A stretch of DNA of 24,466 bases from a virus. This document shows positions 147 through 22,255 of the stretch, one piece after another (position 1 is the first letter of the stretch; every line of letters starts with the position of its first letter). The position numbers were made by a program, and so were the translations under genes. The stretch is taken from IMG/VR virus record IMGVR_UViG_3300028829_001201, positions 1 to 24,466 of that record; one strand, given 5' to 3'. Below the pieces are notes generated by a model, which was given only the letters and a program-made list of their open reading frames with translations, was not told where the DNA came from and did no database searches.

Positions 147-1220
147 ATGGCAGACGAACTAGATAAAAGAGTTAGTGAACTAGACAAACAACTTACCAAG
201 GCTGCAAAAACCTTAGAAGATAATGTTAAACTCGAAGGAGAAAGAAACAGAGCAATTGCATCTTCTACTAGCGAACAGAAAGAATCATTTAAAAATTTAA
301 TTAATGATTTAAAAGAGGTTAGACCTGAAACTGCTAAAATCGTTGCAGATTTTAAAAGTGCTGGTGATGATACGCTCAAAGGTGCTCTCTTAAATAAGAA
401 AATGTCCGTTGCCATTGAAGCAGCAACCATTGCTACAACAGAAGGAATGGATGCTTTAACTGAAGAACAGTCAAAGGCACTAAGTCAAATTTTTGGAGAT
501 ACTACAGAAAAACTATCTGAAGTTCTAGGACCTATTGCAAAACTTACTGAAGATATAGCAGCAGCAGAAGAAGAAATTGCAAGGACAAAAGATTCTATAT
601 TTGAATTTGAATCTGCCATTGCAAGTACCGAAAAAGATATCGCAGACCTTGTACTCAGAGAAGCAGAGTATAAGAAATCAATTATTGCCCAAGAAAAACT
701 TATGGCAGAACTTGATGCGAAGATGGCCGAAGAAGTGCATGATAATAATAAAAGAACTCACGCATTGCAAATAGCGGCAATCCAAGATAAAGTTAATGAT
801 GCTATCACAGCAAATCAATTAGAAAAAGCAAATATAGATTCTATGTCTGCAAACAGACAAGAGTTATTAGAAACTCAACAATCTCAGTTAAGTATTGAAA
901 AAAATATACTAAACAATAACGAAATCACTCTACAAGAAAATTCAGATAAACAAGAATCTCTAATGAAACAAGAGACTGCTATCCGTGACGAAATGGCTGC
1001 AAATATGGAACAGGCAAAGAATGACCAGTTATCAGGTCTTACTGACTTCTCTGACGGATTAAAAGGTCTTACAGGTTTCGACCTTATAGGTCAATTAGAT
1101 GATGCCGTTAAGATGTTCAACAATGCACAAAAGGTTATGAGTGGAGTTGCACAAGGTTTCTCTAAAGGTGTTGAGTATATGAAAGGTATCAGTATAGAAG
1201 GTATGACTGAGAGACCATGA
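147..1220 (+). CDS. Coiled-coil structural-type protein
   Basis: A 357-residue protein whose ATG follows an AAGGA ribosome site about 7 bases upstream. Residues 1-300 are almost entirely charged heptad-like helix rich in Glu, Lys, Ala, Gln and Asn, with no signal peptide or Cys. The last 60 residues become Gly/Phe-rich (GLTDFSDGLKGLTGFD). It ends in an ATGA overlap with the following hydrophobic protein, so the two are translationally coupled and probably act together. Long coiled coils paired with a membrane-active segment recall tail tape-measure or tail-fibre/inner virion proteins. No catalytic motif is visible and the assignment to the virion is an inference. Confidence 0.75.
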   Translation: MADELDKRVSELDKQLTKAAKTLEDNVKLEGERNRAIASSTSEQKESFKNLINDLKEVRPETAKIVADFKSAGDDTLKGALLNKKMSVAIEAATIATTEGMDALTEEQSKALSQIFGDTTEKLSEVLGPIAKLTEDIAAAEEEIARTKDSIFEFESAIASTEKDIADLVLREAEYKKSIIAQEKLMAELDAKMAEEVHDNNKRTHALQIAAIQDKVNDAITANQLEKANIDSMSANRQELLETQQSQLSIEKNILNNNEITLQENSDKQESLMKQETAIRDEMAANMEQAKNDQLSGLTDFSDGLKGLTGFDLIGQLDDAVKMFNNAQKVMSGVAQGFSKGVEYMKGISIEGMTERP

Positions 1221-2185
1221 GTACATTCTTTACATCAATGATAACATTCTTAACACCTATTATGATTGCAGCGGGTGGATTACTCATGGCAGCGGCACCT
1301 TGGATTCTATTAGGTCTTGCAGTAGTAGGAATAATCCTAGCAGGTATGAAACTATATGAAGAGTCTGAAGGATTTAAAGCAGCGATTGATACAGTTATAG
1401 GGTATTTCATAGACATCAAAGACTCAATCTTTAGAATCTTTGGTGGATTCTTTGACTTCTGGAAAGGTCTATTTACAGGAGACTTCGACTTAATGTTCTC
1501 TGGTCTTAAAGATGTATTTGGTGGAATATGGGATTTAATCAAGGCACCATTCAAAGCAATCGGTGACTTCTTTAAGAATGTATTCGGTATTGATATCATG
1601 GCAAAACTAAAACAAATGGCAAAAGCAATATTGCCAGGTGTAGTTTACAGAGCATTATTCGATGATGATGTACCTGAAATGAATGAGAAAATGAAAGAGA
1701 AAGGATTAGATGCTGCTGAAGAGTCTGGTCTATATGAGAAGAAGGGAATTGGCAGAGCATCAGTTGTTAATCCTGATATGATTATCACTGCACCTAATAA
1801 TCAGTTGAACGCAATTCTTGCTGATGATGATATTGGTGATGAAACCAAAGAGTTAATTGTACAAGAACTAGAAGCAAGAAAATCAATTATTGCAAGTTAT
1901 AATGAAGCAAAAACTGCCTTAGATTCTGGTCAAACTAATATAGCAGATGGTTCTGATGCAGAGACAATTATGGAATGGGCAGAAGAAGACATGGCAAAGA
2001 GACGAGGTTCTCAAATAGAACAAGCAACACAAGATGCACAACCAAATATAAATGCAGCGGCCGAGGCAGTTGCTTCAGTTGTTCAACAGAATAATAATAA
2101 CTCTTCTACTAATGTTTTAGTTCGTAAGGATACTGCTAGAGACGAGAATGATAGATACTATGACGATATCATGGCAGGAGTTTAA
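1217..2185 (+). CDS. Hydrophobic tape-measure-like protein
   Basis: A 322-residue protein starting inside the stop of the coiled-coil gene (ATGA). Residues 8-45 form one long or two short membrane segments. Residues about 55-125 carry aromatic/Gly repeats (FGGFFDFWKGLFTGDF, FGGIWDLIKAPFKAIGDFF), the style of repeat seen in many siphovirus and myovirus tape-measure proteins. The C-terminus is Asn/Gln-rich linker followed by a charged tail (RYYDDIMAGV), also common in tape measures. T4 itself uses gp29, with which no similarity is evident. Its 3' end overlaps by 4 bases the 3' end of the convergent minus-strand block, so this is a transcription convergence point. Confidence 0.7.
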   Translation: MSTFFTSMITFLTPIMIAAGGLLMAAAPWILLGLAVVGIILAGMKLYEESEGFKAAIDTVIGYFIDIKDSIFRIFGGFFDFWKGLFTGDFDLMFSGLKDVFGGIWDLIKAPFKAIGDFFKNVFGIDIMAKLKQMAKAILPGVVYRALFDDDVPEMNEKMKEKGLDAAEESGLYEKKGIGRASVVNPDMIITAPNNQLNAILADDDIGDETKELIVQELEARKSIIASYNEAKTALDSGQTNIADGSDAETIMEWAEEDMAKRRGSQIEQATQDAQPNINAAAEAVASVVQQNNNNSSTNVLVRKDTARDENDRYYDDIMAGV

Positions 2186-2388
2186 TCCAACTTATCGTAA
2201 TGTTTCTCTTTACGAGGAATGATTTTTGTTTTGTCTTTATGCATCTGAGTAGATGCGTGTGAAGGTGTTTCTTTTCGAACCTTTATTTCTGGTTTCTTTT
2301 TACCAAATACAAGTTCCCAACCGTCAGCATAGGCATCTTCGTTAGAGTTCCTTCTCTTAGAACCTTTTCCCCCATGCCACTGATTCAT
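2182..2388 (-). CDS. Small basic conserved phage protein
   Basis: A 68-residue, Lys/Arg/His-rich protein. Its start ([16 protein letters not shown]) resembles a short family of unknown function common in T4-like phages (HGGKGS followed by Arg-rich and a DxW/GK segment). The ATG overlaps the last base of the bS21 stop, so it is probably co-translated with bS21. The strong positive charge is compatible with nucleic-acid or ribosome binding, but that is only an inference. Confidence 0.65.
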   Translation of the reverse strand: MNQWHGGKGSKRRNSNEDAYADGWELVFGKKKPEIKVRKETPSHASTQMHKDKTKIIPRKEKHYDKLD

Positions 2389-2621
2389 TATCTTGGTCTA
2401 TAACCTTTTTGTGAAGCCCTTTTTGCATCAAGTTTCTTTCGTCTTTTGATGTCTTGATTTCTTTGATTCTTTGTATCGTTAGGTTTCTCATGATATTGTC
2501 TATCACGAACCTCTTGAACTATACCTGCCCTCTCACATTGTTTCTTAAATCTCCTAAGCATTCTATCGAAAGGTTCTTCTTGTCGATTCTTAGGGTTGAT
2601 TTTCGGTCTCACTTCTGGCAT
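2388..2621 (-). CDS. rpsU: Ribosomal protein bS21 (phage-encoded)
   Basis: A 77-residue protein matching bacterial S21 in length and pattern. The core is at residues 16-47: [19 protein letters not shown], then a V-rich helix, then the RxxxYxxKP turn, followed by a basic C-terminal tail. bS21 sits on the platform of the 30S subunit near the 3' end of 16S rRNA and helps initiation. A virus copy could replace or supplement the host protein and bias initiation toward phage messages. Phage bS21 homologues are known from marine viruses. The ATG follows AGGAG 6 bases upstream. It is preceded by a GC-rich, structured untranslated leader and sits downstream of gp32 on the same strand. Confidence 0.92.
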
Positions 2622-2811
2622 AATTCTCCTGTTTTAAAAAAATGTATAGTTGCCCCACGCTTTACAGCATCCCGCTCTATACCGATTATTCCGCTATTCG
2701 CCAATAATCTTTCCCTTACTTGGTGCCCCCATTTTTGTCCACGGTCCAAGTCTGCCCTTGTTCTTGCATCACTTATACATAATAAAAACACAAGGGCACC
2801 CAACTCAAAGA
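2622..2811 (-). ncRNA. Candidate structured leader RNA of the bS21 gene
   Basis: This 190-base spacer between the gp32 stop and the bS21 ribosome site is visibly richer in G+C (about 45-48 % by hand count over 2641-2800) than its neighbours. On the minus strand it can fold. A 9-bp stem pairs 2790-2798 with 2753-2761. An outer 6-bp stem pairs 2677-2682 with 2644-2649 and encloses a 5-bp hairpin at 2657-2670 capped by a GUAA (GNRA-type) loop. The segment at 2794-2803 could instead pair with 2720-2728, a mutually exclusive alternative. The hairpins lie just upstream of the AGGAG of bS21, a place suited to translational autoregulation. No known Rfam class was recognised. A TTG-start ORF also crosses the region but is weak. 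Confidence 0.5.
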
Positions 2812-3711
2812 TTAACTGTCTTCAGCTAATCTTTTGAAGTAATCCATCGCGTCGTCACCTTCACTTGATTGTGTGGAAGTCGATTCTGCTGATGCGATTA
2901 CAGGTTCAGTTGCAACACTTTCAGTATTAACATTTGACCATGGCACTTCTTCCTGGTCTTCTGCAATACTTTCTGCCGTGCTACCTGATACTGCACCTGA
3001 TAGGCCTAAGACTCTATCAAGTTTCTCTTTGAGTTCGTCATAAGACTTGAACTCATCTGGAGAGATTACTTCACTTAAAGAATGAACTAAACTAAATGTA
3101 GAGTTAATCATTGCTTCGTCACCTAATGGTGAAGTTGCATCGAACTCTGATTTGTCATAGTTCCAGTAACCATCAACTTTTCTGATTTTGATTTTAAAGT
3201 TTGCACCTTCTGTCATATCAAATGGGTTGATTGCACTTTCATCTTCAAATGCTGGAGAGATTGCCTCTTTGAGTTGTTCAAAGATTTTCTTTCCAAATCT
3301 GTATTTGAAAACTTTGCCTTCATTGTCTGGATTTTTAGGGTCTGAAACAACATAAACATTTGAGACATAGTGAAGTCTACGCTTCTGCTTTCTCGCCTGT
3401 TCTTTATTTGCTTCGATACCTGAATTCCACAATGTAGTATTGTATTCAGACACAGGGTCTTTTTTATTAAGAGTCGTTAAAGACTTCTCAATATACCACC
3501 CACCAGGTCCTTGAAAACCATGGTCCCAATATGAAACCCACGGCATTTCTTCGCCTTCTGGAGTTGGTAAAAAACGAACTACTGCATAACCGTTACCTGA
3601 TTTATCAAGTTCTGGTTTCCACATAGTATCGTCATTGTAGGATTTTTTCTCACCTTGAGCTGGTGATGCGGTTTCCATGGCCGCTCTGAGCTTATCTAAT
3701 GATGCTGACAT
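2812..3711 (-). CDS. 32: gp32-like single-stranded DNA-binding protein
   Basis: A 299-residue homologue of T4 gp32, the cooperative ssDNA-binding protein of replication, recombination and repair. It has an N-terminal basic/LAST-like segment, then the GNGYAVVRFLP strand, the DHGF motif at 63-66, the EGKVFKYRFGKK segment at 131-142 (near-identical to T4), SFSNYD-like WNYDKS, and an acidic C-terminal tail for partner binding ending EDS. His64 of the T4 zinc site is kept. The three Cys ligands are gone: position 77 is Ser, and CPVC is replaced by DPVS at 85-88. The whole protein has no Cys. The ATG follows an AGGAG site. T4 gp32 represses its own translation by binding its leader, so the 132-base upstream spacer may matter here too. 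Confidence 0.95.
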   Translation of the reverse strand: MSASLDKLRAAMETASPAQGEKKSYNDDTMWKPELDKSGNGYAVVRFLPTPEGEEMPWVSYWDHGFQGPGGWYIEKSLTTLNKKDPVSEYNTTLWNSGIEANKEQARKQKRRLHYVSNVYVVSDPKNPDNEGKVFKYRFGKKIFEQLKEAISPAFEDESAINPFDMTEGANFKIKIRKVDGYWNYDKSEFDATSPLGDEAMINSTFSLVHSLSEVISPDEFKSYDELKEKLDRVLGLSGAVSGSTAESIAEDQEEVPWSNVNTESVATEPVIASAESTSTQSSEGDDAMDYFKRLAEDS

Positions 3712-3843
3712 TGTATTCTCCTATTGTATTCGTATAACATTGTATTTGCATTTTATCAATCAGTACAAACCTATGCACTGCTGTCAACCAGGTTTTCTGT
3801 AAAACTTATAAAGTCCTGGGTATATTTATACCCAAAATTGGTA
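3712..3843 (-). promoter_or_regulatory. gp32 upstream region with late-type box
   Basis: This spacer lies between the gp59 stop and the gp32 start. On the minus strand it contains TATAAATA (3830 down to 3823), the consensus -10 of T4-type late promoters. The box is embedded in a perfect 16-base palindrome (GGGTATAAATATACCC). Further downstream is TTGACA (3787 down to 3782), the sigma70 -35 consensus, although no good -10 follows at 16-18 bases. The palindrome has no T-run after it, so an intrinsic terminator is unlikely. Promoter function is inferred. Confidence 0.5.
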
Positions 3844-4434
3844 CTACTCACACAAATCTATTAATAATGATTTGTATTTCACTCGGTTGAATTCCACGAA
3901 TGATTTGTATTTGTTTATTTTGACATGAATTCCAGGATATATTATTCTCTCTGATATTAATCTATCCCAATCTTTAGTAAATCCTATAATCTCATCCATA
4001 ATACAGAGTGTCTCTAAAGATACTTTCTTTGCCATAAATTCTTTCAAAAGAATAGGGTGTTGTCCGTTCTTAACTTCTAACACCTTCTGAATATTCTTTT
4101 TACGAAGTAAATCGTTTACTTCGGTTTCGAACAGATAAGATAACTTTTGATTATTCTTTTTCCATTCTTTGTAAACTTTAACACACTCATCACTCAATAA
4201 GTCTCCTGCCCACAAATCCTTTTTAGAAAGGTTTGCAATATAGAAATCTTGTAGTTCGTGTTTATATGTTCTAAACAGTTTACCGAAATGATACTTATCC
4301 TTTCGTTTGAGAAAGGACTTTATATCTGCTTTGACTTTGCCATTATACTTAACAAAGTCATAGTCGTTAGAATAGAAGTGTAATTTTATACCAAGGTATA
4401 AAGTGTATGCATCATATCCTTCACGACTCGTCAT
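3844..4434 (-). CDS. 59: gp59-like loader of replicative helicase
   Basis: A 196-residue, basic, all-helical-type protein. It resembles T4 gp59 (217 aa) in its N-terminal pattern (YxLYLxIKxHF then DxVKYNGKV), its KRRDKY-like KRKDKYHFGKL segment and its position between gp33 and gp32. gp59 binds forked DNA and gp32 and loads the gp41 helicase. The ATG at 4434 overlaps the last base of the stop of the upstream LSm-like gene (TAATG). Similarity is modest but order and motif agree. Confidence 0.88.
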   Translation of the reverse strand: MTSREGYDAYTLYLGIKLHFYSNDYDFVKYNGKVKADIKSFLKRKDKYHFGKLFRTYKHELQDFYIANLSKKDLWAGDLLSDECVKVYKEWKKNNQKLSYLFETEVNDLLRKKNIQKVLEVKNGQHPILLKEFMAKKVSLETLCIMDEIIGFTKDWDRLISERIIYPGIHVKINKYKSFVEFNRVKYKSLLIDLCE

Positions 4435-4742
4435 TAAGTAATGATTTTCTTTTCAGGTGGTGTTTGAATTACTGATTCTTCTTTACCAGTGTTTGCAACA
4501 GCAGTTTGATGTGCCTCTGCAACCATTTCATTACACTCTGATACGAATACATAAGTTTGTACAACCATAGATTCAGGATTTTCTTTTCCTGTCACTGCGA
4601 CTCCTTTAGCAAACCCCATACCACCTTCTGGATTCTTAACAATCATTTTCGGATTTTTAAGAGTTAATGGTTCAGTCTTTGCAAGTTCCCCTACATACTC
4701 TCCTGTAAAAGTCACAACTGTGACTACATCTCCTTTCTTCAT
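4434..4742 (-). CDS. Conserved T4-like phage protein, possible LSm-like barrel
   Basis: A 102-residue protein with a beta-rich N-terminal half: KGDVVTVVTFTGEYVGEL, then LTLKNPKMIV, then a Gly-rich MGFAKGVAVTG, then VQTYVFVSE. This layout (short strands, a conserved NPEGGMGF loop) is frequent in a family next to gp33/gp59 in marine T4-like phages and resembles an Sm/LSm barrel. The fold is an inference. The start follows GGAGAT, and the stop overlaps the gp59 start, so it is part of the same operon. Confidence 0.75.
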   Translation of the reverse strand: MKKGDVVTVVTFTGEYVGELAKTEPLTLKNPKMIVKNPEGGMGFAKGVAVTGKENPESMVVQTYVFVSECNEMVAEAHQTAVANTGKEESVIQTPPEKKIIT

Positions 4743-4753
4743 AATATCTCCTA

Positions 4754-4996
4754 TTATTTTTTAGTGTCAAAGAAACCTGATAAGGTTGCTTGACTATTAG
4801 TTCCACGATTTACCATGTTTAAACCTGTTGCCTCTGCTTCTAACTTCTCCTTTAAGGGTGGAGATAAAAGTCTTTTAGCACTTTCAGGTTCTAACATGTT
4901 TTGTTCACATACTTTAAGTATAGCAGACATTACATCTGACTTGCCATAACGACATAGTTTCTCTACTTTTTCTGTAAATTCTTTTTTACTAATCAT
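4754..4996 (-). CDS. 33: gp33-like late transcription co-activator
   Basis: An 80-residue protein beginning at the ATG at 4996 (MISKKEF), preceded by GGAG. A longer upstream reading (to 5026) is unlikely because the previous ORF ends exactly here. T4 gp33 bridges RNA polymerase and the sliding clamp to activate late promoters. The central helix pattern (EKVEKLCRYGKSDVMSAILKVCEQN) and C-terminal clamp-binding tail agree with that role. The tail here is QATLSGFF, resembling a PCNA/clamp-interaction motif. It is followed by the LSm-like gene and gp59, as expected for a T4-type 33-59-32 block. Confidence 0.85.
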   Translation of the reverse strand: MISKKEFTEKVEKLCRYGKSDVMSAILKVCEQNMLEPESAKRLLSPPLKEKLEAEATGLNMVNRGTNSQATLSGFFDTKK

Positions 4997-10496: not shown

Positions 10497-11156
10497 TTAT
10501 TTATAGTATCCTATGTTTTCAAAGTCGTTAGGGTAAGATTTATGTATGTATTCTTTTGTGTGTTCTCCAAAAATTAATTTAGCTAATTTATCTGCATCAC
10601 TAACTTCGAGAAGTTGCATTTTATGTTTGTGATTCACTTGGTCTGTTGCCCACTCTTTGGTGTTAAGATGATTAGACATGTCTACCTTAAACCCCTCAAT
10701 ATCAATTGTAGTACCAGTGACATCTTCTAGTTTAATTTGTTTAAGATTCTCCAGTCTCTTTCCTTTCCAACTCATATATTTCCATTGAGGACAAAACAAT
10801 GTAGAACCTGAGAATTGGTGTGGAGTCTTTTCGAAAAATCTTTCTGGTCTTTTACCATATAACATGATTATAGGTATAAAGGATAACTGTGATTTAAATC
10901 TTTCATAAGGGTGTCGAGTTATACAGTAGATAGGCAAATGTTTCCAACGACCCCAAAACTTAGGTATCATATTAAAAATTTCTGCTGGTGTATAATGGTC
11001 ACATTCTGGAATTAAGTTTATTACTCTAAGTTCTTTATGTTTTCTTAATTCGGTCATCAATGTAGTTCCACCACATTTCATAGGGTGTGCAATGAAACAA
11101 ATAAACTGTTCAGAACCCTCTTCGTGTGATTTATTTAAATCGATAACACCATACAT
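10497..11156 (-). CDS. Sulfotransferase-like protein
   Basis: A 219-residue protein from the ATG at 11156 (a GTG at 11183 is also possible). FIAHPMKCGGTTLMTELRKH at 21-40 is a PAPS 5'-phosphosulfate-binding loop with Lys27. CITRHPYERFKSQ at 78-90 is the 3'-phosphate-binding segment with Arg81 and Ser89. Such enzymes transfer sulfate from PAPS to sugars, lipids or peptides. It is the last gene of the radical SAM cassette, starting a few bases after the stop of the 2OG oxygenase. The acceptor cannot be predicted. Confidence 0.8.
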   Translation of the reverse strand: MYGVIDLNKSHEEGSEQFICFIAHPMKCGGTTLMTELRKHKELRVINLIPECDHYTPAEIFNMIPKFWGRWKHLPIYCITRHPYERFKSQLSFIPIIMLYGKRPERFFEKTPHQFSGSTLFCPQWKYMSWKGKRLENLKQIKLEDVTGTTIDIEGFKVDMSNHLNTKEWATDQVNHKHKMQLLEVSDADKLAKLIFGEHTKEYIHKSYPNDFENIGYYK

Positions 11157-11160
11157 AATA

Positions 11161-12087
11161 TTACTTAGTAAAGATGAACTCACTTAATTTGGATAAAGTT
11201 TCACCATATTGACCATGTGTATTCTGTCCTAAGAGGTTGCAAAACTCTATTTGTTTTAACTCTATGTTATCAGAGTTAAGAATAGTATCAACTCTATTTG
11301 TCATAGAACAAAATTCATACACTAGTGATTCAGATTTCTCTCCAATTTGTTTTTTAATTTCTTCTCTCGTGATTTTTTCTGCATCAAAATTATAATACTC
11401 TGTTCCATAGATTGAATGAAACCAACATGCCTTTATAACATCTTCACTGAACTTATGCTCTTGAGCAATCTTTCCAGTGGTGAGTAAGTGTTCGAAAAAA
11501 GTTCCTCCACTGTGTTCTGCATTCTTTGTTTGTTGATAGAGATAATCTAAACATGGTGTGGTGTAATTTAGGTCAAAGTATTTAAACACTAACACTCTTC
11601 TGATATTACCGAATGTTTTACTTAGAGGTCTTGCGGCATGTAATAAACTAGAATTAAATATGAATACTCTTCCCTCTTTTGGTAATACTGATTTTATAAT
11701 TTCACCATTCTCAAATATAACAGTCTCACCACCCCAATTGATATCCCATTCTTCATTCAAATATATGATTGCTGTCTTTTGAGGAATATTTGAATTTTTA
11801 GAATCTACATGTGCCGCTGCATCATTACCAAAACAATAACCATTAATGTATGCTCGTTGGATGCCCCAACCATCCATGTCTAATTCTTGGTGTATTTTTT
11901 CTAAAATTGGTGACCACATTTCAACAGACCTCATATCAAAATAAGTATCAAATCCGGCATCACATATGTTGTGATTCCAATGTAAGAATTCTTTTGTGTT
12001 GACATTCGAAGGCCAACCATAGTGAAAGGGTAGAGATTGTTGTGACACTCCTCTGACCAAGTCATTTGAAACCTGTTTAACAATCAT
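11161..12087 (-). CDS. 2OG-Fe(II) oxygenase fused to a DUF6817-like domain
   Basis: A 308-residue protein. Residues about 75-170 form the double-stranded beta-helix of a prolyl-4-hydroxylase-type oxygenase: HVD (His93, Asp95), IIYLNEEWDINWGGET, then His150 of LLHAARP and Arg163/164 as 2-oxoglutarate contact. Residues about 180-290 resemble DUF6817, an HD-like domain: AEHSGGTFFEHLL (His192, His200), ACWFHSIYGTE (His224) and GEKSESLVYEFCSM. The fusion suggests hydroxylation coupled to a hydrolase-like or metal-binding step. TAATG overlap with the SDR gene shows co-translation. Substrate unknown. Confidence 0.82.
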   Translation of the reverse strand: MIVKQVSNDLVRGVSQQSLPFHYGWPSNVNTKEFLHWNHNICDAGFDTYFDMRSVEMWSPILEKIHQELDMDGWGIQRAYINGYCFGNDAAAHVDSKNSNIPQKTAIIYLNEEWDINWGGETVIFENGEIIKSVLPKEGRVFIFNSSLLHAARPLSKTFGNIRRVLVFKYFDLNYTTPCLDYLYQQTKNAEHSGGTFFEHLLTTGKIAQEHKFSEDVIKACWFHSIYGTEYYNFDAEKITREEIKKQIGEKSESLVYEFCSMTNRVDTILNSDNIELKQIEFCNLLGQNTHGQYGETLSKLSEFIFTK

Positions 12088-12665
12088 TAACTGAATCTCT
12101 TCATATCTCTTAGAGTTTCTTTATCACTTTGTATGTTCTGATAATTAGCATGTGCCTGAAGTGTAATCTCTGGAATCTCGTAATCTGGATAAGTTGTTAT
12201 AAGTTTATGAATTAGACCTGCAACATCTTGGTGTTTAACACTCGGAAGATTCTCATCATCCAGAAGACCTAAGTTAAGTGTGGTCATTTTGTATCTCTTC
12301 TTAGAGTTGTACTGATAATTGTTTGCAAGGTGATTGAGTTGTGCTTTCTCACTTGCATATACATAACCTTTTGATATGTTCGGTTGACTTGCACGACTAG
12401 AGATATTAATAATAGTTTTAGTCTTCTCACCTTCCCATGCCTCGTGAGCAATAGATAGAATCTTAGATTGGTCTTGGTGTGCAAGATTGATTAGAACATC
12501 ACACGGTTTGTATCCTCTGAACACCCAACAATCTGCCCCATTCATTGTAATATCTTCACAACGAATTGGTGATACCTCTATTGTATTACCTTGATAAGGT
12601 GTTGCTTCTAGTGTGTCTTTAATTGTCTTTGCAAGACCACTAGTTCCTGTTATTGCTACTCTCAT
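12087..12665 (-). CDS. Short-chain dehydrogenase/reductase-like protein
   Basis: A 192-residue protein with an NAD(P)-binding glycine motif GTSGLA (7-12), ISS (88-90) and YASEK (Tyr103, Lys107), the SDR catalytic set. It is shorter than most SDRs (about 250), so the C-terminal substrate domain is reduced. Its start overlaps the radical SAM gene by 26 bases, and its stop overlaps the oxygenase start, so it is tightly embedded in the cassette. Probable role: redox tailoring of a sugar or other small metabolite, an inference. Confidence 0.78.
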   Translation of the reverse strand: MRVAITGTSGLAKTIKDTLEATPYQGNTIEVSPIRCEDITMNGADCWVFRGYKPCDVLINLAHQDQSKILSIAHEAWEGEKTKTIINISSRASQPNISKGYVYASEKAQLNHLANNYQYNSKKRYKMTTLNLGLLDDENLPSVKHQDVAGLIHKLITTYPDYEIPEITLQAHANYQNIQSDKETLRDMKRFS

Positions 12666-13575
12666 AATATTCCTTAACTATATCAAATGACGGTTGGCCA
12701 AATAGTGAACCGTCTACACTACATTTATTACAAGGAGACATACTTCTATCTCCCTTCATTAATCTCTTACGAATCTTTGTCATAGGTTTAGAGAACCACA
12801 CATCATGTAAAGATTGTTGCAAAAGATTTCCTACAACATGTTCTCTTCCCCAATCGTTAGAACAAAACAATACATCTCCGTTCCAGTCTACAAACATTTT
12901 ATAGAATGGATAATGACAAGGTTTACCTTTTAGATTCTCTATAGTATCATCTTCAACACCAACCCAATCGACAACACCACTACGGTTGTTTAATATGAGT
13001 CCGTGTTTCTCAAAGTCTCCCCAATGCATTCTAAACTTATACTTGTCAACAGGTATCTCTGCCCACAATAACATTTCTTCAAACTTATCCATCTGTTCTA
13101 TACCGTCATACAGATTAATATAGATTAAATCTAAACCTGAATCATGTATAAGATTTACGAGATACTTATGGTCAAGTTTATCTCCGTTAGTATTACACTC
13201 TAATGTTGCATAAGGTAATTCTGTTCTGAATATCTTTACTATCTCTACGAAGTCTGGATTAAGGAGATTCTCTCCGAATCCACTGAATGATATCTTGCCT
13301 TGAAAGTTATTATCTCCTAATTCTTCTGCAATAGTTAATGCACCCTTAGGTGTAAGATGTAGATTTCTATTAGGGAATATTTTAGGGTCATGTCGAGGAC
13401 AAAACACACATGTTCTATTACAAAGTTCTGTCGTGTTAATCTCTACAGTAAGAATAGAATCTAAAGGTTCACTTGTCTTAACTTTATCCCAATGTTTCTT
13501 TTCTTGTTCTCTTCTATGTTCCAAGAAATCATATTGGTCTACTGCCTGAATTGGAATGTTTCTATTAACCGACAT
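12640..13575 (-). CDS. Radical SAM protein with SPASM domain
   Basis: A 311-residue enzyme. The radical SAM cluster motif CNRTCVFC (Cys52, 56, 59) binds the 4Fe-4S cluster and S-adenosylmethionine. GFGENLLNP (99-107) fits the SAM-binding region. A C-terminal SPASM segment carries Cys220, 238, 282 and 285 (KPCHYPF, VLFCSNDWG, SPCNKC) for extra Fe-S clusters. SPASM enzymes modify peptides, sugars or cofactors. It begins the cassette of SDR, oxygenase-DUF6817 and sulfotransferase. Its ATG overlaps the end of the upstream gene. No precursor peptide is evident beside it. Confidence 0.9.
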   Translation of the reverse strand: MSVNRNIPIQAVDQYDFLEHRREQEKKHWDKVKTSEPLDSILTVEINTTELCNRTCVFCPRHDPKIFPNRNLHLTPKGALTIAEELGDNNFQGKISFSGFGENLLNPDFVEIVKIFRTELPYATLECNTNGDKLDHKYLVNLIHDSGLDLIYINLYDGIEQMDKFEEMLLWAEIPVDKYKFRMHWGDFEKHGLILNNRSGVVDWVGVEDDTIENLKGKPCHYPFYKMFVDWNGDVLFCSNDWGREHVVGNLLQQSLHDVWFSKPMTKIRKRLMKGDRSMSPCNKCSVDGSLFGQPSFDIVKEYYESSNNRN

Positions 13576-16927: not shown

Positions 16928-17503
16928 TTAATAATGTATTCTTAGTAATTCTATTGTTTCCTTCTTTCTCTTTAGAACGAGGTATCTCGTCCATAAACCT
17001 TTAGCAATAATATTACCACCTGATACCAGTCTATCAAGTAAAGTCAAATCTGTCAAGGTCTTTTCTATACATTCGTCTGCATCTATTATCTTACTACCAT
17101 TCACTCTAAGACCACCATAAGATTTGAACATGGTAAGTTTCTTTGTGGATGTGTTGTATCCAAACAACATCGATGCACGAATGATTTCTTCTGGATTTAT
17201 GGATTTATATTTCTTCCACTCTGAAAGATAAGGAAGTTTCTTTACTAACTGTGCTGGGGTTTTAGGCTTTCTAGGTTTACGAACTGGTTGATACTCTGCA
17301 ATATACTTTTCAATATCAGTTTCAAACTCTTGGAGTTTCTTTACAATCTTTGTCTTCTGACCTTTAGTGAGAAAGTTATATGCCTCATCTAATTGTTCAC
17401 AACCTTCTTTGTTTAGAATTTCGTATTGCATCTCCTCTGTAAACCCTTTCATGTATGCAACAACTTTACCAGAGTAATCTAATTGTACAAGATACTTATA
17501 CAT
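16928..17503 (-). CDS. Conserved phage protein of unknown function
   Basis: About 191 residues from the ATG at 17503 (an upstream ATG at 17530 adds nine). Neither has a good ribosome site, so translation may be coupled to RimK. Layout: helical N-terminal half, a basic linker (QPVRKPRKPKTPAQLVKKLPYL), then INPEEIIRASMLFGYNTSTKKLTMF and a C-terminal TLTDLTLLDRL. Similar proteins with a basic PRKPK linker occur in many large phages. Structural role suspected, unproven. Confidence 0.7.
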   Translation of the reverse strand: MYKYLVQLDYSGKVVAYMKGFTEEMQYEILNKEGCEQLDEAYNFLTKGQKTKIVKKLQEFETDIEKYIAEYQPVRKPRKPKTPAQLVKKLPYLSEWKKYKSINPEEIIRASMLFGYNTSTKKLTMFKSYGGLRVNGSKIIDADECIEKTLTDLTLLDRLVSGGNIIAKGLWTRYLVLKRKKETIELLRIHY

Positions 17504-18945
17504 AGAAAAAGGAATGGACTTATTATCCATAAGAGTATCGATTTGTGCTTCGACTTCAAACCGTTTGCGTGTTCATCGTTTCTATTTGTTAACATAAATT
17601 TACGAGCAGGATTTATCATTAAATTTGCTCTCTTCATAAAGTCTCTGTTAGCAAGGAATGGTATTTGATTCCTTTTATCTAACGAAACTTCTACTTCGTA
17701 AATTGTATTTAGAAAATTTATTTCCAATAGAACGACTGGCCTTTTTTCGGCAGGTTTTAATAACTCTACATATCGATGTAAAGGTTCTTTGTATTTAACT
17801 CCTTCTGTAGTCCATGAGACTACTTTATTTTTTACAGTCAAGTCATCCGCGTGCAAGGCACATGTCGTTGTATTATTACCAGTATCCATCTTAACAGTTA
17901 GTTCCTGTCCTTCAACTTCTAATGTTTCTAATACACCACATTCTGTTGCACTTCGTTTCCATGAATCTCTATCAAGCAGATTATCTAAAACAATTTTATT
18001 AATATCACCATCAATTACTTTGTTGATACCCTCGGTACCAGGTGAATGGTTAACTTCGATAATGAATGGTGCATCTTTATCTCTGTTCTTTGCTGGCATA
18101 AAGTCTACACCAACCCATTGTCCGTTCACCGCTTTGGCTGCCTGTAAGACTGCCTCTTGTTCCACTTCAGTGAGCTCAATCACTTCAGGTTCAGAACCTT
18201 GTGAAACATTACTTCTAAAGTCGTCAAGTATCTTAGGTCGTTTCATCGCACCTATGATTTCTTTATTCACAACAATACATCTAACATCGTAATCAACTTC
18301 AATGTATTCTTGTAATAGTATATCTGCATAAGGGTCAATCTTATAAACCAACTGAACGGTTGATTGTAATGACCTCTCTGTTTCAATCAATAGAACACCA
18401 ACACCTTTACTTCCTTGTAGTGTCTTTAACACCATAGGGAACTTAGACTTCAATGCCTCATGAGCAGTCTCTATTGATTCTTTATCTGCATTCGGTATCA
18501 GTACGGTCTTAGGTTGATTCATACCAATCTCTTGCAGTCTAAGATAACATCTAAACTTATCTGCACATACTTCAATTGTTTCTCTGAAGTTGCAAACAGG
18601 AATACCGTATCTTTCTAATTGAGATACTAAATCCAGATATGAATCTTTTTTACCAACTGCACCACGAATGAGAACAACTGTATCTTCATCGATTTCAAAT
18701 CCAAATCCATCATCTTCTTTGTGTATAGTTAATTGACCAGACTTCTCATCACGCATGATGAATGCACCATTGACACGACAATCATATACTTCGTGTCCTA
18801 GTTTTTGTGCAAGTTTAACTAACTTTGCACTCGTCGCTTTAGGGTTTGACTTCTTCGGTTTTTCTGCGAGTACAACCAGACGATAAGGATTCTTGGCATC
18901 CTTATTCTCTGTTATTGTTTGCAACTCATTAAAACTTTTAATCAT
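17479..18945 (-). CDS. RimK-like ATP-grasp ligase fused to RimB-like retropepsin
   Basis: A 488-residue two-domain protein. Residues about 20-330 form a RimK-type ATP-grasp ligase: VLKTLQGSKGVGVLL (172-186), DVRCIVV, DDFRSNVSQG (241-250) and the metal-binding FIIEVNHSPGTEG (294-306). Residues about 340-455 match the RimB-type retropepsin-like family (PF05618): MDTGNNTTTCALHADD with catalytic DTG at 354-356, RPVVLLEI and NRDFM ... INPARKFML. In Pseudomonas, RimK adds glutamates to ribosomal protein bS6 and RimB removes them. The hydrophobic last 20 residues overlap the next gene. ATGA couples it to the PD-(D/E)XK gene. The substrate here is inferred. Confidence 0.9.
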   Translation of the reverse strand: MIKSFNELQTITENKDAKNPYRLVVLAEKPKKSNPKATSAKLVKLAQKLGHEVYDCRVNGAFIMRDEKSGQLTIHKEDDGFGFEIDEDTVVLIRGAVGKKDSYLDLVSQLERYGIPVCNFRETIEVCADKFRCYLRLQEIGMNQPKTVLIPNADKESIETAHEALKSKFPMVLKTLQGSKGVGVLLIETERSLQSTVQLVYKIDPYADILLQEYIEVDYDVRCIVVNKEIIGAMKRPKILDDFRSNVSQGSEPEVIELTEVEQEAVLQAAKAVNGQWVGVDFMPAKNRDKDAPFIIEVNHSPGTEGINKVIDGDINKIVLDNLLDRDSWKRSATECGVLETLEVEGQELTVKMDTGNNTTTCALHADDLTVKNKVVSWTTEGVKYKEPLHRYVELLKPAEKRPVVLLEINFLNTIYEVEVSLDKRNQIPFLANRDFMKRANLMINPARKFMLTNRNDEHANGLKSKHKSILLWIISPFLFLCISILYN

Positions 18946-19277
18946 TTTTTGTTATGCATCTCCACAAAGTATTCTGCATCTATTACAGCAAGTGGTTTCT
19001 TGCCGTTCTTTTTAATTACTACAAGAGGTTCATAACTTTTGCAATTAGACTCTGCTTGTTCCATTGCTGACCAGATATTAACTTTCTCCTGATTCTTACA
19101 TTCTACACTATAAGGGAAGATTTGTCTAGTCTGTTTTCCCATGATGATATCTTCACCACTCGAACCCATAGGTCTTGATTCTAAATCTTCTTCATCTGCA
19201 CCTAGATGTTCGACTAACATCTTTGCGACCCATTGTTGTAATCTTCTACCCTTTGCTTTCGCTGACGAGGTCTTCAT
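18942..19277 (-). CDS. Small PD-(D/E)XK endonuclease
   Basis: A 111-residue protein with SSAKAKGRRLQQWVAKML, then SRPMGSSGEDI (Asp43) and FPYSVECKNQEK (Glu59, Lys61), a PD-(D/E)XK nuclease fold common in phages (structure-specific or Holliday-junction resolvase-like). C-terminal VVIKKNGKKPLAVIDAEYF closes the core. Its start lies inside the end of the IscA-like gene (32-base overlap). Its function may be in processing branched DNA during packaging. Confidence 0.82.
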   Translation of the reverse strand: MKTSSAKAKGRRLQQWVAKMLVEHLGADEEDLESRPMGSSGEDIIMGKQTRQIFPYSVECKNQEKVNIWSAMEQAESNCKSYEPLVVIKKNGKKPLAVIDAEYFVEMHNKK

Positions 19278-19584
19278 AAAACTGTATACTCACTCCACAT
19301 CCACAAGAAGATTCTTCCTTTGGATTTATTATTTTAAAAAATTCATTAAGTCCCTCTTTCACCCAATCTAATGTTGACCCACTCAAATAGGGTACGGACA
19401 ATTCATCTACCACGACTGTAAACTTTCCATAATTCTGGAGTTTATCAGACATATTAATATAATTAGTTGTGTCTTCGAGAAAATATTCGTAACCTGCACA
19501 CCCACCACCTTTAACTCCGAGTCGGATAAAACCGACTTTCTTTTCGATAAGTTTTTGTATTGCTGTGTCTGTAACCTCTATCAT
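19246..19584 (-). CDS. IscA/HesB-type A-type Fe-S carrier
   Basis: A 112-residue protein with the three diagnostic cysteines: GGGCAGYEY (Cys29) and CGCG (Cys94, Cys96). Layout IEVTDTAIQKLIEK ... RLGVKGGGCAGYEYFLED ... VVVDELSVPYLSGSTLDW ... CGCGVSIQF is standard for A-type carriers that accept and hand over Fe-S clusters. AGGTGG lies 4 bases before the ATG. Phage copies occur in marine viruses. It may support the radical SAM/SPASM enzyme of the same strand or maintain host Fe-S proteins under iron limitation. Confidence 0.92.
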   Translation of the reverse strand: MIEVTDTAIQKLIEKKVGFIRLGVKGGGCAGYEYFLEDTTNYINMSDKLQNYGKFTVVVDELSVPYLSGSTLDWVKEGLNEFFKIINPKEESSCGCGVSIQFYEDLVSESKG

Positions 19585-19596
19585 ACCACCTATTTA

Positions 19597-20214
19597 TTAT
19601 TCCGAGGCCTGTTCCTTAAATAACTTTACATCTTTAGGTTTAATCATTGAATAAGGTATGTGGATATCTTGGTCTGCAGGTACATACAGATAATTAATCT
19701 GACTCTTCTGACATGTTGCGATTGCATCTTCGATTGTCTCGACCAATGCCTCACCACCTAGATTGAATGATGTATTAAATATCATTGGAACTCCTGTGAT
19801 ATTATAGAATGATTCTATAAGTTCATAGTAGTTTTTGTTCTGTTCTCTTGTGACTGTTTGTATTCTACAAGTACCGTCTGCATGAACTAAACTAGGAATA
19901 TCTTTGTATGCTTTTTCTTTTGCTTGTATCGCAAAGGACATCCAAGGTGATTCTTTTAATTGTTTCATGTCGAAGTAATCGTTTGCATGTTCTAACATAA
20001 CTGAACCTGCAAATGGTCTATAGTCTTCTCTTTGTTTAACTGAATTCACAATTATCTTTGCCATAGGATTTCTAGGGTCAAATAATATACTACGATTACC
20101 TAATGCACGAGGACCCCATTCGGATTTTCCTTGAAAGATTGCAACGATTTGCTCTCTGTCAACCAGTAAGTCAATGACTGTATCTAAGTCTCTTATAATT
20201 TTAGTCTTTATCAT
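19597..20214 (-). CDS. Carbamoyltransferase, C-terminal part (separate ORF)
   Basis: A 205-residue protein matching the C-terminal domain of NodU/CmcH-type carbamoyltransferases: FQGKSEWGPRALGNRS (27-42), REDYRPFAGSVM and FNTSFNLGGEALVET. This domain transfers carbamoyl from carbamoyl-adenylate to a hydroxyl acceptor. Its ATG follows AGGAG 6 bases upstream, inside the end of the N-terminal part, and the two ORFs overlap by 14 bases in a different frame. The ribosome site argues for a genuinely two-polypeptide enzyme rather than an error. Confidence 0.88.
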   Translation of the reverse strand: MIKTKIIRDLDTVIDLLVDREQIVAIFQGKSEWGPRALGNRSILFDPRNPMAKIIVNSVKQREDYRPFAGSVMLEHANDYFDMKQLKESPWMSFAIQAKEKAYKDIPSLVHADGTCRIQTVTREQNKNYYELIESFYNITGVPMIFNTSFNLGGEALVETIEDAIATCQKSQINYLYVPADQDIHIPYSMIKPKDVKLFKEQASE

Positions 20215-21376
20215 TTTGTTCTCCTGGAGGATTTGCTAACAGGTCTCGTTCAAACCAAAGGGCTGCACCTGCAGCCGTACCACCGTCATGTGGCATAGGG
20301 TCTACAAAGAACTGGTGTTCTGGAAAGGCATCGAGATACTTATAGTTGTTCGTGCAATTGAGAGAGTATCCACCACTTAGAACAATGTTCTTACAATCTG
20401 GATTCGCATCGACTGCCATCTGAATTGTTTTAATTGATTCTTCTAGTGTTCTCTCTTCTAGTTCTTGTGCTGTTGTGAAGTTATTAAATATACCTGTTTC
20501 ACTGATTGATTTGGCGTATGATGCCATACCCATAACTTTACCTGCACCTGTACCGATTTCGTCACAACCTAATGCAACTGACATCTGACTGAAGTTCATA
20601 CCACTTGAAGGTGCTGATGTGAATTCTAAGTCTACACCATCTTTGTTTATAAGAAGAGGTTCAAAACAATGAAATGCATCGAACGCCATGTTAGGGAACT
20701 GCCAACCTATTTCGGACACCAAACGGTGATTAGATAATTTTTGGTACTGGAGTTCTGGTTCCACACCAGGTTTGCATAAGTAAACTGAATCAGTCTCTTG
20801 ATATGCAGGATACTCATCGTGATACCTCATGGCACCACCACCATCCCAAACGATTGCGATTGCATCTTCGTTGTCTTTGTAGTAAGGACTTAAATGATAC
20901 CCACACTCTGCATGATAGAAGTGATGTTCAGGTTCACAATGATATGCAGTCACATTCCAATGATAGTCTGATATCATATCTGCAATCTCAAAGTCTCTTT
21001 CAGGTCCTACTTCTGACAAGTCGATGTGTTCACCGTATGTCTGCATAAGTTCTTCTGTTCTTTCTCTTGTGAGTTGTTGTGAACTTACATCTTTTGCAAA
21101 CTGTTCTGCAAAAAGTCTATCTTCGATTAACTTAGGTGAGTCAATATTCCAAATGATATTCTTTCTATCAAAGGTTGCAAAGATTAAATGGTCTGGTTCC
21201 TTTATTTGTTCTTGGTCGATACACTGAAGACCTTTATCGTGTTGTGGGTCCAGTTTATCGGGGTCCCAAAATTTATGTCTACGAAATCTTGCCTCGTCAT
21301 GGCAATACTTTAGTTCTCCGTTTTCAACTTCTGCTACTGATGTGTCGTGTGAAATATTTATTCCAATGATTCTCAT
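20201..21376 (-). CDS. Carbamoyltransferase, N-terminal part (separate ORF)
   Basis: A 391-residue protein matching the N-terminal (Kae1-like) domain of NodU/CmcH carbamoyltransferases: IIGINISHDTSVAEVENG at the start, the metal-binding EHHFYHAECGYHLSP, VWDGGGAMR, GAGKVMGMASYAK and SGGYSLNCTNN. It makes carbamoyl-adenylate from carbamoyl phosphate and ATP. The protein ends just where the C-terminal ORF begins. Possible targets are sugar, lipid or natural-product hydroxyls. It is preceded by a 57-residue membrane protein. Confidence 0.9.
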   Translation of the reverse strand: MRIIGINISHDTSVAEVENGELKYCHDEARFRRHKFWDPDKLDPQHDKGLQCIDQEQIKEPDHLIFATFDRKNIIWNIDSPKLIEDRLFAEQFAKDVSSQQLTRERTEELMQTYGEHIDLSEVGPERDFEIADMISDYHWNVTAYHCEPEHHFYHAECGYHLSPYYKDNEDAIAIVWDGGGAMRYHDEYPAYQETDSVYLCKPGVEPELQYQKLSNHRLVSEIGWQFPNMAFDAFHCFEPLLINKDGVDLEFTSAPSSGMNFSQMSVALGCDEIGTGAGKVMGMASYAKSISETGIFNNFTTAQELEERTLEESIKTIQMAVDANPDCKNIVLSGGYSLNCTNNYKYLDAFPEHQFFVDPMPHDGGTAAGAALWFERDLLANPPGEQNDKD

Positions 21377-21576: not shown

Positions 21577-22080
21577 CTATTTAGACATGTTCTCTATGTA
21601 GTTAATATTCAAACACACTCGTCTATAGGCATCATCATCTGTATTTGAAGTAGAGGCATGAGGTGTATGACCATTAAATATGACCAGTCGATTGGCAACT
21701 GACCTTACTTTCTCATCTTTAAACAATGTATCACCATCGTTATCATTTAAATAAAGTATTGCAGTTGTGTAATCATTCTTTGTCGCAGGTAAATCGGTAT
21801 GAAACTCATGTTCGACTCTGTTCTCTGTTCTAGGTACACAATTTAATTTCATTCTTAATAGTGAAAAGACATTAAGTTGTTCGAGTATAGGTTCAAAGTG
21901 TTCAAACATACGAGACTTGACCTGATTTCGTGCATACAACATGTGTGTATACTGTGACGAAGGTGAGTCATGGTAGTTGTTAATACCCTCATGGTAATAC
22001 CAAGGGAAGTCCACATCAAAGACATCTTTGACTAGGTCATTAAAATATCGTTTGTCTAAGAAATCATCTACGATTTGCAT
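21577..22080 (-). CDS. 2OG-Fe(II) oxygenase
   Basis: A 167-residue protein starting MQIVDDFLDKRYF (22080). It carries the HxD motif HTD (His94, Asp96), ILYLNDNDGDTLF, GHTPHAST (His141 as distal metal ligand) and RRVCLNINY (Arg153 as 2-oxoglutarate contact), the prolyl-hydroxylase-like layout. Substrate unknown. Marine phages often carry such enzymes. It lies next to the carbamoyltransferase genes, which may mean a shared target. It overlaps the previous membrane gene by 17 bases. Confidence 0.88.
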   Translation of the reverse strand: MQIVDDFLDKRYFNDLVKDVFDVDFPWYYHEGINNYHDSPSSQYTHMLYARNQVKSRMFEHFEPILEQLNVFSLLRMKLNCVPRTENRVEHEFHTDLPATKNDYTTAILYLNDNDGDTLFKDEKVRSVANRLVIFNGHTPHASTSNTDDDAYRRVCLNINYIENMSK

Positions 22081-22255
22081 ACACACTCTTAATCTTATCA
22101 ACACACCAGTATACACTGTCTACGATACCTTCCCATACAGTCGTGCGATACGACCATACCCATACTACGATTCCGACCCATACTAACAACGAACCCATAT
22201 ATTTAATTGTCCATACAAACACATTAAAGGGCATAAAGAATAAAAATTCTAACAT
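22064..22255 (-). CDS. 63-residue membrane protein
   Basis: Two hydrophobic segments (FLFFMPFNVFVW and GSLLVWVGIVVWVW) and a basic C-terminus. The ATG at 22255 overlaps the preceding stop (TAATG) and follows GAGGT. Family unknown. Confidence 0.65.
   Translation of the reverse strand: MLEFLFFMPFNVFVWTIKYMGSLLVWVGIVVWVWSYRTTVWEGIVDSVYWCVDKIKSVYANRR

Follow-up and report, generated by a model that had tools for sequence, protein, structure and literature searches.

The closest described systems are the class III ATP-dependent O-carbamoyltransferases of the TobZ/NodU/CmcH type, in which a Kae1-like part (PF02543) precedes a YrdC-like part (PF16861). TobZ, GdmN, NovN and VtdB share both folds, the mapped metal-ligand and adenylation positions and the order of the parts with the locus described here. 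However, the solved class III enzymes are single chains of about 576-702 residues, whereas this locus is made of two chains encoded by two genes. The same two folds are found as separate proteins in tRNA t6A synthesis, where the adenylate former (TsaC/YrdC) and the Kae1-like transferase (TsaD/Kae1) are distinct, with the adenylate presumably being shuttled (PMC6594144). According to the same paper, HypF is one long chain in which YrdC is followed by Kae1, with additional acylphosphatase and Zn-finger domains. A class III enzyme has also been described in phage, namely a 5-hydroxymethylcytosine (5hmC) carbamoyltransferase consisting of a single 63-kDa chain and associated with a thymidylate synthase homologue (eLife 2021 e70021). 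A comparison of T4-like genomes from 2010 gave 1524-1803 bp for cyanophage carbamoyltransferase genes, i.e., single-chain lengths (PMC3037559). No paper discussing a split carbamoyltransferase was found in searches of open-licence PMC papers, and the word “carbamoyl” is absent from the main text of the S-SCSM1 paper (PMC9602691).

The window analyzed here is the whole stretch of 24,466 nt corresponding to positions 1-24,466 of the virus record IMGVR_UViG_3300028829_001201 (IMG/VR). Judging from sequence comparisons and structural models, it is likely that the locus encodes a class III O-carbamoyltransferase as two chains, produced from two translationally coupled genes and inherited in a large clade of marine T4-like phages. 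Its features are the following:

20201-21376, minus strand: N gene, Kae1-like (acceptor, metal-binding) subunit of the putative class III carbamoyltransferase; 391 aa, ATG start (PF02543, AlphaFold2 fold)
19597-20214, minus strand: C gene, YrdC-like (carbamoyl-AMP-forming) subunit of the putative enzyme; 205 aa, ATG start (PF16861, AlphaFold2 fold)
20201-20214, minus strand: 14-nt overlap of the N and C genes, with the C-gene ATG inside the N-gene end (ORF map; same overlap in contigs L003-L005)
20221-20225, minus strand: AGGAG ribosome-binding site of the C gene, inside the N gene, with a 6-nt spacer to the ATG at 20214

The two ORFs lie in different frames. On the coding strand, the AGGAG (20225-20221) is followed by six bases, the ATG and then the stop of the N gene. 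The earlier note had described two halves on separate ORFs overlapping by 14 bases, with a properly spaced AGGAG site inside the end of the first one, and the ORF map agrees on both points.

In Pfam, the N ORF matched PF02543 (Carbam_trans_N) with 51.1 bits (cut-off 24) and the C ORF matched PF16861 (Carbam_trans_C) with 197.5 bits (cut-off 27). No further Pfam domain was found in the two ORFs, and the N(Kae1)-C(YrdC) order on two ORFs likewise departs from the HypF architecture. In PHROGs, both ORFs matched phrog_1601. The C protein also matched phrog_20469 (181 positions) along nearly its whole length, so that stand-alone C domains seem to be already on database record. The PF02543 match of the N ORF is weak and a single-sequence phmmer search of N against solved structures gave no match at E 0.01, the link to the class being made by profile and fold. 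Indeed, in profile searches with N and C, class III chains were the sole matches at E 0.01.

AlphaFold2 models of N and C, built as single chains from 57-sequence alignments, reached a mean pLDDT of 92.9 and 91.9, respectively. The N model superposed on TobZ 1-355 (3vf2) with a Z of 24.1 over 265 residues (rmsd 2.5), in a tie with the top row of its fold list, a GdmN chain (Z 24.2). Most class III rows were at about 24, whereas Kae1/TsaD and HypF rows were at 16-19, and four further GdmN rows reached only about 18, level with the Kae1 rows. The C model superposed on TobZ 383-563 (3ves) with a Z of 22.4 over 178 residues (rmsd 2.6), the top row being GdmN (Z 23.1). Class III rows lay at 21-23 in this list, against a maximum of 15.3 for HypF and TsaC/Sua5 rows (9-15 for TsaC/Sua5). 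Class III rows thus top both lists, and TsaC/TsaD are not the closest match by sequence and fold. Because the two folds match TobZ 1-355 and 383-563, the break falls in the interdomain linker (TobZ 356-382), in place of which the window has two unlinked tails. Among the 57 aligned pairs, the N tail beyond G370 comprises 9-55 residues, and the C lead before the E of the E-x-GPRAL motif comprises 31 residues in most rows.

Positions H10, H151, H155, D178 and D364 of N correspond in the profile alignment to TobZ H14, H114, H118, D137 and D338 (TobZ chain numbers run six ahead), and K60 and S149 of C correspond by offset to TobZ K443 and S530. TobZ H114, H118, D137 and D338 are presumably the metal ligands of that enzyme, and structure titles name a TobZ H14N variant as well as variants at K443 and S530. 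All these window residues are invariant in 57/57 aligned pairs. The alignments comprise 57 of the 58 representatives (all but L102, which has a short N), selected from 78 pairs at <90% N identity after removal of open-ended rows and of L096. The metal of GdmN is coordinated by two His and two Asp, which are called highly conserved in the class (PMC9633730). By its positions, its alignment with TobZ and its fold, N is a Kae1-like domain whose metal ligands are two His and two Asp, and by PF16861, K60, S149 and its fold, C is a YrdC-like domain of the carbamoyl-AMP-forming type. Together, the pair carries the whole TobZ-type enzyme except the linker, and both ORFs are intact, conserved and co-located. 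The usual state of the class, both domains on one polypeptide, is not needed for homology and is absent here. Since the halves lie in separate ORFs in the window and in all of the best 80 of 120 relatives of the N ORF, the locus was filed as a two-chain variant of class III.

From these comparisons and models, we infer that N and C would act jointly as a two-subunit carbamoyltransferase. The YrdC-like C would make carbamoyl-AMP from carbamoyl phosphate and ATP and pass it to the metal-binding, Kae1-like N, which would then move the carbamoyl group onto the hydroxyl of an acceptor. By analogy, the work would be divided as it is between TsaC/YrdC and TsaD/Kae1 in t6A synthesis, while the gene overlap and the internal ribosome site may couple the synthesis of the two subunits.

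IMG/VR was scanned with the N ORF and the best 80 of 120 relatives were taken (37-88% identity). In 80/80 of these loci, the N and C matches lay in different ORFs, the single-ORF arrangement being absent. Three of them (L003, L004 and L005), contigs of three other metagenomes with 88% N identity, show the same 14-nt overlap as the window, and L003 and L005 are identical over the N-C pair. The split is an inherited trait of related marine phages, in line with the earlier note, which had favored evolved splitting over a sequencing error. The scan with the C ORF returned 48 loci, of which 35 had the matches in different ORFs, 12 in one ORF and one had C only (L095, whose C ORF starts 110 bases from the contig end). 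The 35 loci comprised 31 N-C splits, one C-N pair (L126) and the contigs L118, L119 and L124. These three phage contigs carry two or three tandem single-chain carbamoyltransferase genes. Because of the one-ORF and tandem single-chain loci in the C scan, the less close phage relatives can be regarded as often single-chain.

In 78 distinct pairs, the N stop and the C start overlapped by 4 nt (19 pairs), 23 nt (15), 14 nt (14), 8 nt (10) or 17 nt (7), and the remaining pairs had other overlaps (1, 11 and 20 nt among them) or gaps of up to 111 nt. An SD-like motif preceded the C start in 68/78 pairs, as compared with 147/2246 ATGs inside the same N genes, and is therefore more frequent than expected by chance. 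It was found in 63/66 pairs of the window's group and in 5/12 pairs of a more distant split group. As seven of the ten pairs lacking it fall in this group of 12, only the window's own group retains the ribosome site well. For both genes, dN was lower than dS in those close pairs whose synonymous divergence was sufficient. This is illustrated by the comparison of the window with L006 (dN/dS values of 0.21/1.45 for N and 0.11/0.89 for C) and with L003 (0.075/0.29 for N and 0.060/0.17 for C). The closest pairs (L003/L004 and L068/L069) are too alike to be informative, and one N pair was left out because of an ambiguous base.

In a C-domain tree of 137 rows, made by a quick method with SH-aLRT support only, the 59 phage N-C split rows formed one side of a branch with a support of 96. 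The bacterial single-chain rows of L176-L214, two partial bacterial rows and the non-representative phage N-C rows were left out of this tree. The C-N rows did not form one group (four changes), and the fewest changes among the fused, N-C and C-N states were six. Close cultured relatives were looked for and none was found: the best-ranked SSB match was 54% over 98% of the query, and one further record had a 60-80% match over some stretch. In the phage collection, the best C-domain identity to the window was 61%. Methylophilales phage Melnitz has no annotated carbamoyltransferase between 40 and 70 kb.

Separate genes for the two halves also occur elsewhere in the family, since a C gene followed by an N gene is found in Synechococcus phages Sf-FP1 (13-nt overlap) and S-RIM44, in S-SCSM1, in marine virus AG-345-D19 and in contig L126. 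In Sf-FP1 and S-RIM44, the pair follows a gene annotated as thymidylate synthase (ThyX in S-RIM44) and precedes phoH, while S-SCSM1 (L218) has tandem C-N-C-N half-genes at 1178-4760, again after a gene annotated as thymidylate synthase. The pairs of Sf-FP1, S-RIM44 and S-SCSM1 thus resemble the window in having the same two domains on two separate genes, and differ from it in the reversed gene order, a C identity of 56-61% and the adjoining thymidylate synthase-annotated gene. All eight proteins of these three phages retain the tested positions, except S-RIM44 N, which as annotated starts past the H10 position. In the N protein of AG-345-D19, the H10 position is occupied, by eye, by N instead of H. 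Single-gene isolates comprise P-SSM2, S-CAM8, S-MS29, S-SSM5, S-CAM1, S-SSM7, XacN1 and Mosig, as well as S-CAM9 and S-T4, which were judged by length. Among the best 80 of at least 584 bacterial and archaeal relatives, 79 loci had both domains in one ORF, as expected from the earlier note's statement that the enzyme is normally one chain. The exception, the bacterial locus L209 (2668-4555), carries the two domains on separate but overlapping ORFs; this could be an assembly frameshift.

Several readings of the two ORFs were weighed. L209 is perhaps a case of an ordinary single ORF broken by a sequencing or assembly indel or by gene decay, but for the window such an origin has practically no probability: the same junction recurs in contigs of three other metagenomes, all 80 returned relatives (best 80 of 120) are split with differing junctions, the catalytic positions are invariant and dN is below dS in both halves. 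Sequencing error and pseudogene formation were thus excluded by independent contigs and conservation. The ORFs could also be halves of one product if a programmed ribosomal frameshift in the overlap additionally yielded a fused single-chain enzyme, as the overlap of the ORFs in most pairs (62/66 in the window's group) would allow. However, relative to N, the C gene is in frame +1 in 48 of the 78 pairs, in frame +2 in 27 and in frame 0, with intervening stops, in three, and because of this mixture no one frameshift direction fits. Moreover, the C gene keeps its own start with an SD-like site and some related phages have the reversed gene order. Such a frameshift is very improbable and was rejected on the mixed frame offsets. 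The two proteins might no longer form one enzyme, one half having taken a separate role, e.g., as a free YrdC-like protein that forms the adenylate for another acceptor protein. The two C and two N genes alternating in S-SCSM1 would permit sharing, and standalone YrdC/TsaC proteins exist according to structure titles. Nevertheless, both N and C are present in 80/80 returned loci (best 80 of 120), no more than 111 nt separate them in the 78 distinct pairs, the sole locus with C only (L095) has its C ORF close to a contig end, and the catalytic positions of both halves are invariant, so that this reading appears unlikely. Somewhat less doubtful, though still rather unlikely, is a modular two-subunit system of marine phages, in which a separate, possibly exchangeable YrdC-like chain could serve more than one acceptor-specific Kae1-like chain, N-C, C-N and C-N-C-N being versions of it. 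The two-gene state is thus real and evolved, and the locus is very probably a two-chain variant of a known enzyme class.

The neighbors of the split pairs are largely DNA-metabolism genes. They were counted over 78 loci, many of which end too early to show neighbors. The following genes flank the pair in the window:

19246-19584, minus strand: A-type Fe-S protein, downstream (PF01521; cluster in 51/78 loci)
18942-19277, minus strand: RusA-like nuclease, downstream (phrog_244, label from PHROGs; cluster in 63/78 loci)
17479-18945, minus strand: RimK-like ATP-grasp ligase (PF08443; cluster in 36/78 loci)
21577-22116, minus strand: oxygenase-like gene of the 2OG-Fe(II) type, located upstream of N (PF13640 at 22.8 bits against a cut-off of 27; own cluster in 5/78 loci)

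An exonuclease cluster (phrog_107) is present in 59/78 loci. Any relation of the RimK-like ligase to the carbamoyltransferase is putative; the C-terminal part of this protein weakly matches, below cut-off, the PF05618 zinc-protease family. The window genes at 21577-22116 and 11161-12087 are labeled “DNA endonuclease V” in PHROGs (phrog_274), whereas their Pfam match is to 2OG-Fe(II) oxygenases, below cut-off for the first, and the label looks wrong for both. The region 10497-13575 contains a weak sulfotransferase match, a 2OG oxygenase fused to a DUF6817/HD-like part and a radical SAM/SPASM protein, a run of genes that may be a small biosynthetic cluster.

The nature of the acceptor was considered in the light of this neighborhood. 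One paper (PMC9146016) ascribes to the carbamoyltransferase of S-SZBM1 the first step of pyrimidine synthesis; for the window locus, the TobZ-type domains argue against such a role. The phage setting, the DNA-metabolism neighborhood and the thymidylate synthase-annotated gene preceding the C-N cyanophage pair in 3/3 annotated records (ThyX in S-RIM44) would suit an enzyme that carbamoylates 5hmC in phage DNA, like that of eLife 2021 e70021. In that study (PMC8670742), the positions of TobZ W408, G421 and R423 scored highest for a difference in conservation between contigs with and without the modification. By eye, these positions are I, C and T in the 5hmC enzyme. The window also has I at the first of them, where its group has I, M or L (57 aligned pairs), but the other two are G39 and R41 in 57/57 pairs, so that the group shares the first residue of the 5hmC enzyme and not the other two. 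In addition, the 5hmC enzyme has a very long branch in the tree, and its placement is uncertain. No protein of PF00303 (thymidylate synthase/dCMP hydroxymethylase family) was found in 40 related contigs, eight of them >100 kb and all possibly fragments, and no ThyX (PF02511) in 35 related contigs, also possibly fragments. TET/JBP (PF12851) matched in 8/35 contigs, once above cut-off. 5hmC-type DNA modification was not supported by these searches, and 5hmC is a most unlikely acceptor. A tentative alternative, somewhat better placed although far from probable, is that a target hydroxylated by a neighboring 2OG-Fe(II) oxygenase is then carbamoylated by the two-chain enzyme at the hydroxyl thus introduced. 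The oxygenase-like gene just upstream of N is a possible source of this hydroxyl acceptor. PF13640/PF13759 matches lay within 2.5 kb of the C gene in 11/25 non-redundant contigs, hand-picked from 35, against a random-position mean of 4.6, and 2OG-Fe(II) matches did so in 19/35 contigs overall, against a random mean of 7.8, in a test that counts weak matches and ignores shared ancestry. Annotated 2OG oxygenases are also the neighbors of the single-chain carbamoyltransferases in S-CAM8, S-MS29, S-SSM5 and S-SSM7. However, such oxygenases are numerous in these phages anyway, 4/25 contigs have no match, and the nearest relatives of the window (G001 and G002) have their sole match about 8 kb away. 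Since the loci share ancestry, the counts are not independent and the enrichment near split pairs is suggestive only.

Should N and C prove to form one enzyme, the locus would represent a natural two-protein form of a class for which every solved structure found in this analysis is a single chain. It would then be possible to study and swap donor activation and the choice of acceptor separately, and the pair would show the passage of carbamoyl-AMP between proteins. It would also correct the current annotation of such genes, as the separate halves of S-RIM44, Sf-FP1 and S-SCSM1 are annotated in GenBank as two or more “Nol-like carbamoyltransferase” genes, i.e., as copies of one enzyme. Besides, the question of what marine phages carbamoylate gains a defined two-gene target.
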